The notes under the pieces were generated by a model. The model worked only from the letters and a program-made list of their open reading frames with translations. It ran no database searches and was not told where the DNA came from. 64,000 nucleotides of DNA from positions 124,001-188,000 of the forward strand of contig VGBW01000002.1 of NCBI GenBank assembly GCA_016870365.1. Direction: 5' to 3'. Below are positions 47,982-53,815 of this stretch, in pieces. The stretch's first letter is position 1; each line of letters opens with the position of its first letter. This stretch comes from Actinomycetota bacterium (GTDB taxonomy: Bacteria; Actinomycetota; Actinomycetes; Nanopelagicales; Nanopelagicaceae). The translations under genes and the position numbers were made by a program.

Positions 47982-49064
47982 GTGAGCCTCTCTATCGCAA
48001 TCGTGGGTCTACCCAATGTCGGAAAATCGACCCTCTTTAACGCAGTAACGAAGAAGAACGTGCTAGCGGCCAACTACCCCTTTGCCACGATTGAGCCAAA
48101 TGTGGGAGTCGTTGGCCTTCCAGACGAGCGCCTTGAGGCCTTGGCAAAGATATTTTCATCAGAGAAGATAATTCCAGCCGCCCTCTCCTTCGTTGATATT
48201 GCCGGAATTGTTAGAGGAGCATCTGAGGGAGCTGGCCTTGGAAATAGGTTTCTAGCCCATATCCGTGAATGTGATGCGATCTGCCAGGTAATCAGGGTCT
48301 TTAGAGATAGCGATGTGGTTCATGTCGAGGGCCGGGTTGATCCTAAGAGCGATATTGAAACCATCAATACTGAGCTGCAATTAGCAGATCTGCAGACTAT
48401 TCAAAGAGCGATACCAAGAATTGAAAAAGAGGCCAGACAGGCAAAGGATAGGGCAGCGGTTCTTGAAGCAGTTAAGGAGGCTGAAAAGTTAGTTTCATCT
48501 GGTGGCTTAGTCTCTCAATCAGAGATTGATTTAAGCCTTATCAGAGAGTTGCAACTACTTACTGCCAAGCCTTTTCTCTATCTCTTCAATCTTGATGCAA
48601 GTGAGCTGCAAGAAAAGGAGTTAAAGCAGCGATTATCTGAGTTAGTTGCTCCCTCTGAGGCGATATTTCTTGATGCCAAGACTGAATCTGAGCTAATTGA
48701 ATTAGATGAATCAGAGGCCCTGGAGCTATTAAAGTCAATTGGCCTATCAGAACCTGGGTTAAGTAGCCTTGCCAGAGTCGGCTTTACCACTCTTGGGTTG
48801 CAGACATATCTAACTGCAGGTCCCAAAGAGGCTCGGGCTTGGACCATTCATAAGGGCGATACTGCTCCCGTGGCTGCTGGAGTAATTCATAGTGATTTTC
48901 AGAAGGGCTTCATCAAGGCCGAAGTCGTTTCATTTGCCGATCTAGTTGAAGCCGGATCCTTTAATGAAGCCAAGGCGCGGGGCAAGGTTCGTATGGAAGG
49001 CAAGGATTACGTAATGGCCGATGGAGATGTCGTGGATTTTAAGTTCAATGTCCAAGGTCACTAA
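47982..49064 (+). CDS. ychF: Redox-regulated ATPase YchF
   Basis: 360 residues from GTG. OBG-family P-loop protein: G1 GLPNVGKST (about 8-16), G2 ANYPFATIEPN, G3 DIAGIVRGASEG, and NLDAS in place of the NKxD guanine motif, the mark of ATP preference. The C-terminal TGS domain carries GFTTLGLQTYLTAG, RAWTIHKGDTA, and the terminal GKVRMEGKDYVMADGDVVDFKFNV. It binds ribosomes. The 3' end overlaps typA by 17 bp. Confidence 0.97.
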   Translation: MSLSIAIVGLPNVGKSTLFNAVTKKNVLAANYPFATIEPNVGVVGLPDERLEALAKIFSSEKIIPAALSFVDIAGIVRGASEGAGLGNRFLAHIRECDAICQVIRVFRDSDVVHVEGRVDPKSDIETINTELQLADLQTIQRAIPRIEKEARQAKDRAAVLEAVKEAEKLVSSGGLVSQSEIDLSLIRELQLLTAKPFLYLFNLDASELQEKELKQRLSELVAPSEAIFLDAKTESELIELDESEALELLKSIGLSEPGLSSLARVGFTTLGLQTYLTAGPKEARAWTIHKGDTAPVAAGVIHSDFQKGFIKAEVVSFADLVEAGSFNEAKARGKVRMEGKDYVMADGDVVDFKFNVQGH

Positions 49065-50952
49065 ATCTGCGCACCTTGAGGGCCTTGAAGTTAGGAGGCG
49101 AGAGGAGCTAAGGAATCTAGCCATCATTGCTCACGTCGATCATGGCAAAACCACTCTAGTTGATGCCATGTTATGGCAATCAGGAGCCTTTACTACCCAT
49201 AAGGCTCAAGCAGAATCGCAAGAACGCTTGATGGATTCTATGGATCTGGAGCGGGAAAAGGGAATCACCATTCTTGCTAAAAATACTGCGGTTAAGCGCG
49301 GAGATACGATTGTAAACATCATCGACACTCCCGGGCATGCAGACTTTGGCGGAGAAGTTGAGCGCGGCCTAGAGATGGTCGATGGAGTAGCTCTTCTAGT
49401 TGATGCATCGGAGGGACCGCTTCCTCAGACCAGATTTGTTCTAAGAAAAGCTTTAGAAAAAAACCTTCCAGTTATTCTAATTATCAATAAAGTAGATCGC
49501 CCAGATGCCAGAATCAGAGCAGTTGTTGATGAGACCTACGCTCTCTTTCTAGATCTTGATGCTGATGAATCACAGATTGATTTCCCAATTGTCTATACTT
49601 CAGCAAAGGCAGGGCGAGCATCTTTGACAAGGCCAAGTGATGGAGGCATGCCAGATGAAGAAAATCTTGACGTGCTCTTTGATGCGATCTTTAAGACTAT
49701 CCCCGCTCCTAAATATCATCTGGGAGCCCCGCTTCAAGCCCATGTAACAAACCTTGACTCATCTCCTTATCTAGGCCGCCTTGCTCTATGTCGAGTCCAT
49801 GAAGGTGAGATCAATAAGGGCCAGATCGTCACTTGGATCAAAACTGATGGATCTCAAGCCAAGGTTAAGATCTCAGAGTTGATGATTACCGAAGGCCTGG
49901 GGCGCGTTCCAGCAACAAAAGCAGGCCCTGGGGACATTATCGCTGTTGCCGGAATTGAAACCATTACCTTAGGTGAAACCCTAGCTGATGCTGAAAAGCC
50001 CTTTGCCCTGCCTTTGATTACAGTTGATGAACCAAGCATCTCTATGACTGTTGGTATTAATACCTCGCCACTTGCAGGGAGAGTTGGCAAGAAACTAACG
50101 GCCAGACTAGTCAAGAACCGCCTAGATGTAGAGTTAGTTGGAAACGTCTCACTACGAATCCTTCCCACAGAGCGTCCTGATACTTGGGAGGTTCAAGGAA
50201 GAGGAGAGCTGCAACTTGCCGTCCTAGTTGAGATGATGCGGCGTGAGGGTTTTGAATTAACAGTTGGGAAACCACAGGTAGTAACAAAGCTAGTTGATGG
50301 CAAACTCCATGAACCGATGGAGCGGCTAACCATTGATGCCCCAGAGGATTACTTAGGTGTTATCACTCAGTTGATGGCCCTTCGCAAAGGTCGCATGGAG
50401 CAGATGGTCAATCATGGAACTGGATGGATCCGTATGGATTTCAGAATTCCATCGCGCGGTCTCATTGGCTTTAGAACCGAGTTTCTAACTGAGACTAGAG
50501 GAACTGGGCTTTTGCACCATGTCTTTGATGGATATGAAGCTTGGAACGGCGAGCTAAGAACGAGAAGTACCGGATCATTGGTTGCAGATCGCTCAGGGAC
50601 AGCAACCTCTTATGCCATCTTTGGTCTGCAGGAGCGCGGGACTATCTTTGTTGAAGTAAGCGCTGACGTCTATGAAGGAATGGTAATTGGGGAGAACTCA
50701 AGGCCTGAGGATATGGATGTCAATGTGGTGCGTGAGAAGAAGTTGACGAATATACGCGCCTCCGGTTCTGATGAGACAGAGAAGCTGATTCCACCAAAGC
50801 TATTAAACCTTGAGCAAGCCCTAGAGTACTGCCGCGAGGATGAGTGCGTTGAAGTCACCCCAAGTTCTGTGCGCATCAGAAAAGTTATCTTTGATCGGAA
50901 TGAGAGATCCAGGCTGACTTCAAAGGCGAAGAAAGCCAACCAAGAGGGCTAA
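49048..50952 (+). CDS. typA: Ribosome-associated GTPase TypA/BipA
   Basis: 634 residues from ATG 49048 (the frame opens at 49021 inside ychF). Translational GTPase: G1 IIAHVDHGKTTLVD (about 21-34), RLMDSMDLEREKGITI, G3 DTPGHADFG, G4 NKVDRPDAR, G5 TSAKAG. Then domains II, III and V (PFALPLITVDEPSISMTVGINTSPLAG) and the TypA C-terminal domain (YGIFGLQERG-type sequence YAIFGLQERGTIFVEVSADVYEGMVIGE is present, in pieces). It acts in ribosome assembly, especially at low temperature. Confidence 0.96.
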   Translation: MSKVTKSAHLEGLEVRRREELRNLAIIAHVDHGKTTLVDAMLWQSGAFTTHKAQAESQERLMDSMDLEREKGITILAKNTAVKRGDTIVNIIDTPGHADFGGEVERGLEMVDGVALLVDASEGPLPQTRFVLRKALEKNLPVILIINKVDRPDARIRAVVDETYALFLDLDADESQIDFPIVYTSAKAGRASLTRPSDGGMPDEENLDVLFDAIFKTIPAPKYHLGAPLQAHVTNLDSSPYLGRLALCRVHEGEINKGQIVTWIKTDGSQAKVKISELMITEGLGRVPATKAGPGDIIAVAGIETITLGETLADAEKPFALPLITVDEPSISMTVGINTSPLAGRVGKKLTARLVKNRLDVELVGNVSLRILPTERPDTWEVQGRGELQLAVLVEMMRREGFELTVGKPQVVTKLVDGKLHEPMERLTIDAPEDYLGVITQLMALRKGRMEQMVNHGTGWIRMDFRIPSRGLIGFRTEFLTETRGTGLLHHVFDGYEAWNGELRTRSTGSLVADRSGTATSYAIFGLQERGTIFVEVSADVYEGMVIGENSRPEDMDVNVVREKKLTNIRASGSDETEKLIPPKLLNLEQALEYCREDECVEVTPSSVRIRKVIFDRNERSRLTSKAKKANQEG

Positions 50953-51002
50953 AACACGCCCATTTATCGCCCCTTTTAGCCTCATTGTCAGTGGTCCCCT
51001 CT

Positions 51003-51048
51003 GTAATCACCTCCAGAAGCAAGTAAGCACCAAAGCTGGAGGTATTAC
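51003..51048 (+). promoter_or_regulatory. Stem that fully sequesters the ribosome binding site of the phage-like pair
   Basis: GTAAT-c-ACCTCCAG (51003-51016) pairs with CTGGAGGTATTAC (51036-51048): 13 bp with one bulged C and a 19-base loop. The entire GGAGGT ribosome binding site is in the 3' arm, which ends 2 bases before the ATG. Without opening of this stem, translation should be strongly reduced. No T-tract follows, so it is not a terminator. Confidence 0.6.
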
Positions 51049-51050
51049 CG

Positions 51051-51548
51051 ATGAATCTTAGAGAGCTAGCCTTTCAACTCTCAGCAATCACCCTAATTGC
51101 TGATGCCGCCAAAGAAGCCAAGGACCGGCTTAGAAGGCAGCTTGCCAAGGCGCTAGAGGAAGTTGGCGCAGATTCAGCCAAGGCAGCTTTAGAGGGTGAG
51201 GAGATCGCCAAGGTCTCGCTAATCCGTGCTAGAAACACCCCGCAAGTCCTAAATGAAAAGGCTTTCGTTGATTGGGTTAGAGCCAATTATGAATATGAAA
51301 TCATCGAATCAATCAGAGAATCATTTAGGAAACATGTAATGGGCTCTGTGGAAAATGTCGATGGCAAGGCAATCTACAAGCGCAGTGGCGAGATCCTAGA
51401 TTTCATCGCCTTTAATAGCTGTGATTCCTATGTCTCAACTCGATTCTTGAGTGGAGGTCGTGAAGTTTTGAGTCAAGCACTTCGAAGTGGCTCGCTAAGC
51501 CCCAGTTCGGTTATGGCTGAGGAGCTAGAGATGGCGGTGGGAGAGTGA
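51051..51548 (+). CDS. Actinophage-like hypothetical protein
   Basis: 165 residues. The N-terminal helical region (LRELAFQLSAITLIADAAKEAKDRLRRQLAKALEEVGADSAKAAL, shown here only as a descriptor of the helix at about 3-47) is followed by KVSLIRARNTPQVLNEKAFVDWVRANYEYEIIE, a pattern I associate with short early-region proteins of actinophages. No enzyme motif is seen. Its translation start lies behind a strong SD-sequestering stem. The next gene starts in its stop codon (GTGA), so the pair is coupled. Confidence 0.7.
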   Translation: MNLRELAFQLSAITLIADAAKEAKDRLRRQLAKALEEVGADSAKAALEGEEIAKVSLIRARNTPQVLNEKAFVDWVRANYEYEIIESIRESFRKHVMGSVENVDGKAIYKRSGEILDFIAFNSCDSYVSTRFLSGGREVLSQALRSGSLSPSSVMAEELEMAVGE

Positions 51549-52087
51549 GTTACTTCGATTTAAGTGATTATGAACCGGTTGAAAATCGCATCAGAGCTTT
51601 CTGGCTTAAATATCCCAATGGGCGAATCTTGACTGATTTGCAGAGAACTGAGCGAAGCGATGGCAGAATCGAATGGATCTGCCGAAGTGAGGCCTATACC
51701 AACTCTGAAGATATTCGCCCACAAGCCACAGGCTTCGCAACCGAAATAGAGGGAACATCTCCGGTTAATCGCGCCAATGCCAGTGAGAATTGTGAGACTT
51801 CAAGTATTGGTCGCTGCCTTGCTAATCTAGGTTTTGCTGCCAAGGGAAAGCGCCCAAGTCGGGAGGAGATGTCAAAGGCTGCCGGAGGTGCTTCGGGAAA
51901 GGTCTTGAATAAGAGTGATTGGGGGAGGCTTATCAGCCAGCTTCATGGTTGCACTCAACTAAGCCAGTTAAAGGCCTGGTCTGCCTATGCAGCTAGCTTC
52001 AATATGCCTGAGGCAAAACGCAATGAACTACTTTCAATCTATAAGAGCCATAAAGAGAGTTTGAGTAGGAAGTCAGAAGTTGCCTAG
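51545..52087 (+). CDS. Phage-type ssDNA-annealing (ERF/Sak-like) candidate
   Basis: 180 residues from GTG. The stretch NASENCETSSIGRCLANLGF (about 78-97) resembles the ET-S-x-x-GRALA motif of phage ERF/Sak-like single-strand annealing proteins and their actinophage relatives. The N-terminus DLSDYEPVENRIRAFWLKYPNGRILTDL also has that character. The C-terminus (about 115-180) is a helical extension. It probably handles single-stranded DNA with the upstream gene. Convergent with the EEP gene, overlapping by 4 bp. Assignment rests on a short motif. Confidence 0.55.
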   Translation: MSYFDLSDYEPVENRIRAFWLKYPNGRILTDLQRTERSDGRIEWICRSEAYTNSEDIRPQATGFATEIEGTSPVNRANASENCETSSIGRCLANLGFAAKGKRPSREEMSKAAGGASGKVLNKSDWGRLISQLHGCTQLSQLKAWSAYAASFNMPEAKRNELLSIYKSHKESLSRKSEVA

Positions 52088-52890
52088 AGCAGGGTGATGC
52101 TTAAGGCGCGGTGATCACTTAGGCCATGATGTTGATGAATCAATGGCTTAACTTGCTCGGCCTTGATATCTCTACTCAATATGCAGTCAAATTCAATGTT
52201 TGGTTTCCAAGAAGGATAGGTAGCACCTGGAGCTAGATCACTCCATCCAGAAAACTTAGCTGCTATCCCCCAGGGTAGATTAAGGTCACCGGCTAGGATA
52301 TGTTTTCCTGAGATACTCGGAAGCCACTTAATGATCTTTCTTAGTTGGGATACATTTCTTCCAGGGACAAATGAGAGATGCGTCGTGCTAATTGACAAGC
52401 CGTTTTCGAGCTCGGCAACTAGCACACTTCTTGGCTCATCTGAGACATAGGTAAATCGCGCTCTCTTCTCTCCTGGGACCAATAAGGGCATTCCTATGGC
52501 AGACTTTCCAAGATTAATTCGATGCCAGCACCTAACTTCTACTCTAGAGAGAATCCCTAGGCCATACATAGCTTGGCTTGGGACTTGCAAGTCTTGGGTA
52601 TATATCAATTCGCTATCTACAGCGCTCCACTTTTCACCAGGAGTTCCAATTAATGAGGGTGCAAATGCCCAATAGTTAGCGCCAACTATTTGCGCAACCT
52701 CCTCTACTTGGTTAGCGCCATCAGATCTATTCTGATTGACATCAACTTCTTGGAGCGCAATTACATCTGGATTCACTTCTTTAGCCATCTGATTGAGAGC
52801 GCTTTCAAGAGTCGCCCCAGATGATGGGGGAATGGCCATGCCATGAAGGGTGTTCCAGGAGGTGAGGGTGAAGCCCTGGGTAGATGCCAT
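52084..52890 (-). CDS. Endonuclease/exonuclease/phosphatase family protein
   Basis: 268 residues, a cytoplasmic EEP-fold enzyme with no signal peptide: SWNTLHG near 10-16, DVIALQEVDVNQNRS with the metal-binding Glu, STTHLSFVPG, LAGDLNLPWG, and the terminal LSDHRALSI. Substrate unknown; it may be a phosphodiesterase or nuclease. It is divergent from nudC with a 25-bp gap. No relation to the secreted EEP protein at 18976 beyond the fold. Confidence 0.85.
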   Translation of the reverse strand: MASTQGFTLTSWNTLHGMAIPPSSGATLESALNQMAKEVNPDVIALQEVDVNQNRSDGANQVEEVAQIVGANYWAFAPSLIGTPGEKWSAVDSELIYTQDLQVPSQAMYGLGILSRVEVRCWHRINLGKSAIGMPLLVPGEKRARFTYVSDEPRSVLVAELENGLSISTTHLSFVPGRNVSQLRKIIKWLPSISGKHILAGDLNLPWGIAAKFSGWSDLAPGATYPSWKPNIEFDCILSRDIKAEQVKPLIHQHHGLSDHRALSITLL

Positions 52891-52896
52891 GAAGGC

Positions 52897-52902
52897 AGGC
52901 TA
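52897..52902 (-). promoter_or_regulatory. -10 element of EEP gene (leaderless)
   Basis: Coding strand TAGCCT, then GCCTTC, then ATG. One base from the nudC -10. Confidence 0.45.
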
Positions 52903-52903
52903 G

Positions 52904-52909
52904 TAGGGT
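52904..52909 (+). promoter_or_regulatory. -10 element of nudC (leaderless)
   Basis: TAGGGT, then CGCCCC, then GTG. Back to back with the EEP gene -10. Confidence 0.5.
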
Positions 52910-52915
52910 CGCCCC

Positions 52916-53815
52916 GTGCTGCTAAACCTCCCGCTCTCGCGATACAAACTGCATCGAGCGGCGGCGCTTAGGGGTGATTCTGTTGTCCTTGATGAGCTAT
53001 TCGCCCGAGCAAAGATCATCTCTATGTTGGCAGATCGTTTTGAATGTAGCGGCAATAGCCTGGCATTTATCTCACCCAAACTAGCCGAAGGCGATCGCTA
53101 TTTTCTAGGTCTTTCAAGTTCCGGCGAGCCCTACTTTGTGGTCCATCAGGCAAGTGAATTAACCGAATTTGGCGATAATTTCCAAAGCCTTCGAACTCTA
53201 GGTGCTCGCTTAGATGACTTAGAGGTAGGAGCAGCTGTTCATGCCCTGGCCTTAACCCAGTGGCATCAGAGCCACTTGAGATGCTCTAAATGTGGTGCTC
53301 AAACCCAATCTATCCTTGGAGGATCTGCTAGGCAGTGTGAAGTTTGTAGCGGCCAGCATCATCCAAGAACAGATCCAGCAATTATTGTTTTGGTAAAGGA
53401 TAGCCAGGATCGAATTTTGCTTGGCAGACAGAAAGTCTGGCCAGAGAAGCGCTTCTCAACTTTTGCAGGCTTCGTTGAGCCTGGCGAATCATTTGAAAGT
53501 TCTGTGATCAGAGAAGTAGCAGAGGAATGTGGGGGATCAATTACCGGTATGAAATATCTTGGCTCACAGCCTTGGCCCTTTCCAGCATCAATCATGATTG
53601 CTTATGAAGCCAATATCTCAAACCCTGGCTCTGTAGCTGCAGATGGCCAAGAGATCGAAGAGATCATCTGGCTGACTCGCGATGAACTAAAGTCAAAGTC
53701 TGCAAGTGGCGAGTTGTTGCTGCCACCATTAATCTCTGTGGCTCGAGCGATGATTAACGCCTGGTATGGTCCAATGGCAGAGAGTGAATTGTCAGGTCAG
53801 TCGTGGCGCAATTAG
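52916..53815 (+). CDS. nudC: NAD(+) diphosphatase / RNA decapping Nudix hydrolase
   Basis: 299 residues from GTG. The zinc ribbon CSKCGAQTQ...CEVC (about 122-143) precedes a Nudix domain with RKVWPEKRFSTFAGFVEPGESFESSVIREVAEECGG-type sequence (Nudix box GFVEPGESFESSVIREVAEE, about 183-202) and the SQPWPFPAS NudC-specific motif. It hydrolyses NADH and NAD-capped RNA. The nudC-uvrD2-whiB7 order is also that of Mycobacterium (Rv3199c-Rv3198c-Rv3197A); the mycoredoxin gene found there between nudC and uvrD2 is missing. Confidence 0.95.
   Translation: MLLNLPLSRYKLHRAAALRGDSVVLDELFARAKIISMLADRFECSGNSLAFISPKLAEGDRYFLGLSSSGEPYFVVHQASELTEFGDNFQSLRTLGARLDDLEVGAAVHALALTQWHQSHLRCSKCGAQTQSILGGSARQCEVCSGQHHPRTDPAIIVLVKDSQDRILLGRQKVWPEKRFSTFAGFVEPGESFESSVIREVAEECGGSITGMKYLGSQPWPFPASIMIAYEANISNPGSVAADGQEIEEIIWLTRDELKSKSASGELLLPPLISVARAMINAWYGPMAESELSGQSWRN

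Follow-up and report, generated by a model that had tools for sequence, protein, structure and literature searches.

The window (the whole stretch of 64,000 nucleotides of Nanopelagicaceae DNA that was analysed) contains two phage-type genes downstream of typA/bipA (Table 1). Since both of them match phage families, their description as a phage-like gene pair in an earlier note on this DNA holds. The typA gene is directly upstream, co-directional and about 50–175 nt away in every homologous locus that is long enough. Its listed frame overlaps the gene of a YchF-like GTPase (47982-49064) by 44 bases, and the true typA start may be further downstream than listed.

Table 1. Features between typA and the end of gene 2, numbered as in the window (SD, Shine–Dalgarno sequence)
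Feature	Position	Strand	Remarks
typA/bipA	49021-50952	+	Pfam BipA_C, GTP_EFTU; proposed source of read-through
Inverted repeat GGCTAAAA / TTTTAGCC	50948-50982		End of typA
PafBC-type -26 element TTGTCAGTG	50985-50993	+	Fits tTGTCRgtg (PMC5656591); kept in 27/27 testable homologous loci
-10 element TGTAAT	51002-51007	+	8 nt past the -26 element; 51003-51007 common to the 5' arm
5' arm of SD-sequestering stem	51003-51016	+	Sequence and RNAfold; 12/14 bases upstream of predicted start
Predicted transcription start	51015 (+/- 2 nt)	+	Inferred from leaderless homologs
3' arm of SD-sequestering stem	51036-51048	+	Contains SD GGAGGT (51038-51043)
Gene 1	51051-51548	+	165 aa; phage-type; phrog_5168 / phrog_11955
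Gene 2	51545-52087	+	180 aa; phage-type; phrog_11717 (E 4e-32)

A Pfam search gave no match for either product. Viral homologs of gene 1 weakly match phrog_2205, "Mu Gam-like end protection" (1.5e-6 and 6.7e-6), the homolog in a Streptomyces phage is annotated as a Ku-like protein that binds double-strand DNA breaks, and in two phage contigs (L137 and L142) a true Mu Gam gene (Pfam Phage_Mu_Gam, 4e-19) occupies the place of gene 1, in front of a homolog of gene 2. The profile comparison of gene 1 with two Gam sequences was weak and its fold comparison gave nothing usable; the product may be a remote relative of the Mu Gam-like (Ku-like) proteins that bind DNA ends. The AlphaFold model of the gene 2 product (pLDDT 80.5) has a beta-beta-beta-alpha core, whose top match in VIA-align is human RAD52 (8rjw, Z 8.6 over 90 residues, 3.6 Å), with dsRBD folds scoring nearly equally; Mgm101 and Sak of phage 80alpha are also among the matches. 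Foldseek found no match for this model at E 0.001, and gene 2 also gave a negative result in a profile comparison with an Erf protein from phage Raleigh. A single-strand annealing protein with a RAD52-like core is a possible identity for gene 2. Within the order, 28 of the 296 genomes, belonging to 4 of 17 genera, carry gene 2. It is a fair guess that the two genes form a DNA-end-protection and annealing pair, which would suit a damage promoter.

A distant homolog of gene 1 (20% identity) is found on a high-GC contig (L022:515-2426), where it adjoins the gene of a 331-aa protein that has a recombination-like look and no Pfam match. Two records named Clavibacter (L114, BGOH01000001.1, and L111) carry loci near-identical to those of Nanopelagicaceae, and their names are probably wrong.

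The promoter upstream of the gene pair

The RecA-independent damage promoter (RecA-NDp) used by PafBC has the form tTGTCRgtg-N8-TannnT (PMC5656591); PafB, which recognises the -26 motif, serves as an adapter for sigma A (PMC11804915). The comparison of the upstream regions of the homologs reveals an invariant block, TTGTCAGTG, followed by exactly 8 nt and then T-N-N-N-N-T. This PafBC-type promoter is present 5' of gene 1 in 27/27 homologous loci from four genera, the 27 being those with enough upstream sequence (L008, which is cut by a contig end, was left out). In the 1.29-Mb genome the strict pattern occurs a single time, and the -26 element of the gene pair is the most canonical that was found. 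The -10 element lacks the consensus A at position 2, as do those of other host homologs; the consensus has a lower-case a there.

The genome encodes LexA, as well as PafB and PafC, as two adjacent WYL genes which adjoin a tatC-like gene. In 14 of the 15 recA loci of the same genus, the gene is preceded by GTCRGTG-N8-TACCTT and a GAACNNNNGTTC box; the match in the 15th does not extend to the recA start. The spacing of 8 nt is constant in all homologs of the gene pair and at recA; since recA of the genus has such a promoter and pafB and pafC are present, promoters with this spacing do exist in this group. A sigma-70 consensus scan of 50000-53000 found no promoter. The assignment of 50985-51007 as a PafBC-type DNA-damage promoter is well supported by these comparisons, from which we infer that the promoter depends on PafBC. 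The recA loci themselves (for example L099, L095 and L087), with their PafBC-type promoter and LexA-type box, resemble the double control of mycobacterial recA.

Further strict matches in the genus are near the level of a reversed-pattern control. The other 18 matches, with one mismatch, look like chance and were rejected: they are mostly intragenic, and only that of L077, itself intragenic, is near a downstream start.

The same promoter type is found in viruses. In the two phage contigs, TTGTCAGTG-N8-TATCGT or TAACGT (L137:2323-2345, L142:2316-2338) precedes the Mu Gam gene and the gene 2 homolog, and L138-L141 have, near 2314-2317 and in the same viral setting, a PafBC-type promoter with one base altered, suggesting that phages exploit the damage regulator of their host.

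The position of the transcription start can be predicted from three homologous loci in which the ATG is 7 nt (L019, L020) or 6 nt (L021/L136) past the -10 element, with no space for an SD. These loci look leaderless and, because the -10 spacing is the same, the start in the window is predicted at about 51015. A start at this position would leave 12 bases of the 14-base 5' arm out of the mRNA made from this promoter. Such mRNA is thus predicted never to carry the stem, which could form only on transcripts that come from the typA side.

The stem and its recurrence across lineages

The stem pairs 51003-51007 with 51044-51048 and 51009-51016 with 51036-51043, C51008 being bulged (5' arm GTAAT-c-ACCTCCAG, 3' arm CTGGAGGTATTAC). 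The 13 pairs read from the sequence are also present in the MFE and centroid structures that RNAfold gives for 50950-51100, so that the 13-bp stem with one bulged C is where the earlier note had placed it; the GGAGGT, 5' of the ATG of gene 1 at 51051, does lie entirely in the 3' arm.

The stem had also been described as far stronger than expected by chance, which is borne out for the burial of the SD but not for the fold as a whole. The proposed comparison of 50950-51100 with shuffled sequence recovers the stem in the MFE structure, but the total energy is ordinary (-29.0 versus -25.2 +/- 3.2; z -1.22; 23 of 200 shuffles as good), the global MFE of a 151-nt segment being a weak and uninformative test of the stem. 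When 110 nt of upstream sequence are included, 11.8 kcal/mol are needed to open the SD, against 3.5 when 36 nt are included. A sample of 384 kb of this genome provided 190 SD-bearing genes for comparison; among them gene 1 has the second highest cost (110 nt of upstream context) and the highest rise in cost from upstream sequence; it ranks 1/34 for SD burial in a stricter SD set. The opening energy is 12.1 kcal/mol in the read-through RNA versus 4.6 in the promoter-started RNA. It was taken in place of the SD-unpaired probability, which is a poor measure because the coding sequence pairs with the SD after removal of the 5' arm; in lineage 2, that probability is much the same for both RNAs and does not separate them.

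It may be that selection acts on the PafBC promoter and the SD only, and that the stem arises as a by-product, because the start region is rich in pyrimidines and the SD facing it in purines. The modest z of the whole region agrees with this explanation, while the first rank of gene 1 among 190 genes for SD burial from upstream sequence argues against it. The comparison of lineages bears on the same question. The arm sequences vary between lineages and related genera, and yet the -10/start region pairs again with the SD region, as in L013 (CCTGCATC / GATGCAGG), L015 (GGGTTGTGTACTCC / GGAGGCACCACCC, with internal loops) and L131 (TCCGCTTTACTCAT / ATGAGTAAAGGTGGA); the loop ranges from about 8 to 46 nt, and another genus has stems of 13-15 bp whose sequences are different, which is not what a by-product would predict. 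At 13 representative SD-bearing loci, SD opening costs 5.7-13.4 kcal/mol in the read-through RNA and 1.4-5.7 in the promoter-started RNA.

The native arm pairings give the best total among 120 lineage permutations, which also speaks against a by-product. Shuffling of the promoter arm gives Fisher p values of 0.0002-0.007 over five lineage groups, which are not fully independent, and much of this signal comes from L131-135 (p 0.001). Taken lineage by lineage, the shuffles favour the by-product, with p often 0.05-0.5 (L023 and L130 alone are non-significant). The compensatory changes that the earlier note had proposed to look for are seen between L131 and L134, which differ by one U-A to C-G double change, but not between L001 and L002-L007, whose differences break pairs without compensation, as expected of a by-product.

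The promoters of the same type at recA and in the phages come without a hairpin. At recA, SD opening costs 0.2-1.7 versus 0.2-0.7 kcal/mol, so that the SD is not hidden despite the same promoter type, and in L137 and L142 the costs are 4.4 versus 3.7 and 4.5 versus 4.5 kcal/mol, with no hairpin difference. The hairpin therefore tracks the position behind typA rather than the promoter or the gene family, contrary to what the by-product explanation implies. We conclude that the conservation of the arm pairing is moderate and that the stem pairing is probably under selection, because in other lineages the promoter arm again pairs with the SD arm, through other sequences. That the stem is only a by-product seems to us unlikely, if still worth weighing.

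In L131-L135 the 3' arm starts with ATGAGT, upstream of gene 1; in L134 and L135 (for example L134:2414-2531) the short frame ATG AGT AAA GGT GGG CCT TAA abuts the ATG of the gene.

Proposed mechanism and comparison with known systems

We propose that a PafBC-dependent damage promoter is nested in a hairpin directed against read-through, a reading to which we give a probability of roughly 0.62. It is built on the motif and its conservation, the synteny, the predicted stem, the recurrent pairing, the pafB and pafC genes and the recA promoter of the same type. In RNA that derives from typA, the transcribed -10/start region would occupy the gene 1 SD by base pairing, so that translation would be blocked. 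Upon DNA damage, active PafBC would let RNA polymerase start at about 51015, inside the stem, and the resulting mRNA, devoid of the 5' arm, would have a free SD from which the phage-type pair could be made. Control by damage would thus be imposed twice, first on transcription itself and again because stray transcripts could not be translated. The leaderless lineages, in which the ATG is at the start site and read-through ribosomes are offered no SD, would reach an equal outcome. Read-through from typA, and its amount, is assumed here; several lineages have terminator-like hairpins immediately before the -26 element, in the same place as the 50948-50982 repeat, which may already limit it.

More tentatively, and with odds that we put somewhat below even, a phage end-protection and annealing module may have been captured behind typA, bringing its own damage promoter, after which the hosts would have repeatedly evolved blocks to read-through (varying promoter-arm hairpins or leaderless starts), so that the pair would be made only during damage.

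Alternatively, the inverted repeat could be a DNA operator over the -10 element, or a terminator or attenuator of typA transcription. It does overlap the -10 element, and inverted repeats frequently serve as operators, but the variation of arm sequence and loop length between lineages is at odds with an operator, and as for a terminator, no T-run follows the 3' arm and the terminator-like hairpins are elsewhere, just 5' of the -26 element. We regard both roles as improbable. Least probable of all is an RNA switch, in which the stem belongs to the functional mRNA and holds off translation until temperature, a protein or a helicase opens it, as the earlier note had suggested: the SD is indeed wholly buried, but thermosensors and protein-opened switches were rejected on account of the promoter located in the 5' arm, which holds the -10 element and at the end of which the predicted start lies (a start inside the stem being the very case that the note had named as refuting), the promoter's own mRNA, predicted to lack the stem, would need no opener, the 50000-53000 region has no sigma-70-like promoter and the stem region no Rfam match above threshold, and leaderless homologs offer no SD to control.

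A promoter nested in a hairpin as a lock is a device already known elsewhere, and it is the setting that would be new. If our reading is correct, such a lock, of which phages, insertion elements and sigG provide the known cases, also operates in the DNA-damage response of actinobacteria, here freshwater bacteria of the Nanopelagicaceae type, and the promoter sequence is selected twice, at the DNA level for PafBC and at the RNA level against read-through. The gene pair, which is phage-type and probably related to repair, would be singled out as a prime target of PafBC, and a single locus would offer a natural comparison of the hairpin and leaderless solutions. In a short search restricted to open papers, we found no report of this design in connection with PafBC or the actinobacterial damage response.

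According to Davis, Simons and Kleckner (1985), IS10/Tn10 is reportedly protected from external promoters, transcripts from outside folding back to hide the start of the transposase gene. IS10 differs from the present case in that its transposase is borne by the element and has no damage promoter.

In phage T4, I-TevI, I-TevII, I-TevIII, segB, soc and e have a late promoter inside a hairpin that sequesters the RBS; the latter is hidden only when transcription comes from a promoter further upstream, as the late mRNA is unable to form the hairpin (PMC2988022). Similarly, the inner promoter is here predicted to be placed so that its own mRNA escapes the RBS hairpin, but it would be a PafBC damage promoter of the host, the genes are chromosomal and some relatives look leaderless. 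In B. subtilis, a large hairpin is proposed to block the translation of the sigG read-through RNA from spoIIG, and it cannot form in the PsigG RNA (PMC5942855). Like what we predict here, this is a hairpin against read-through at a chromosomal gene; however, sigG has a sporulation sigma promoter and a hairpin of 20+ bp, whereas at the present locus the promoter is of the damage type and the stem, of 13 bp, turns over in sequence between lineages. Last, the promoter itself resembles the mycobacterial PafBC/RecA-NDp promoters of the recA P1 type (tTGTCRgtg-N8-TannnT, with pafBC present), from which it differs in that it serves a pair of phage-type genes and would double as the arm of a hairpin.
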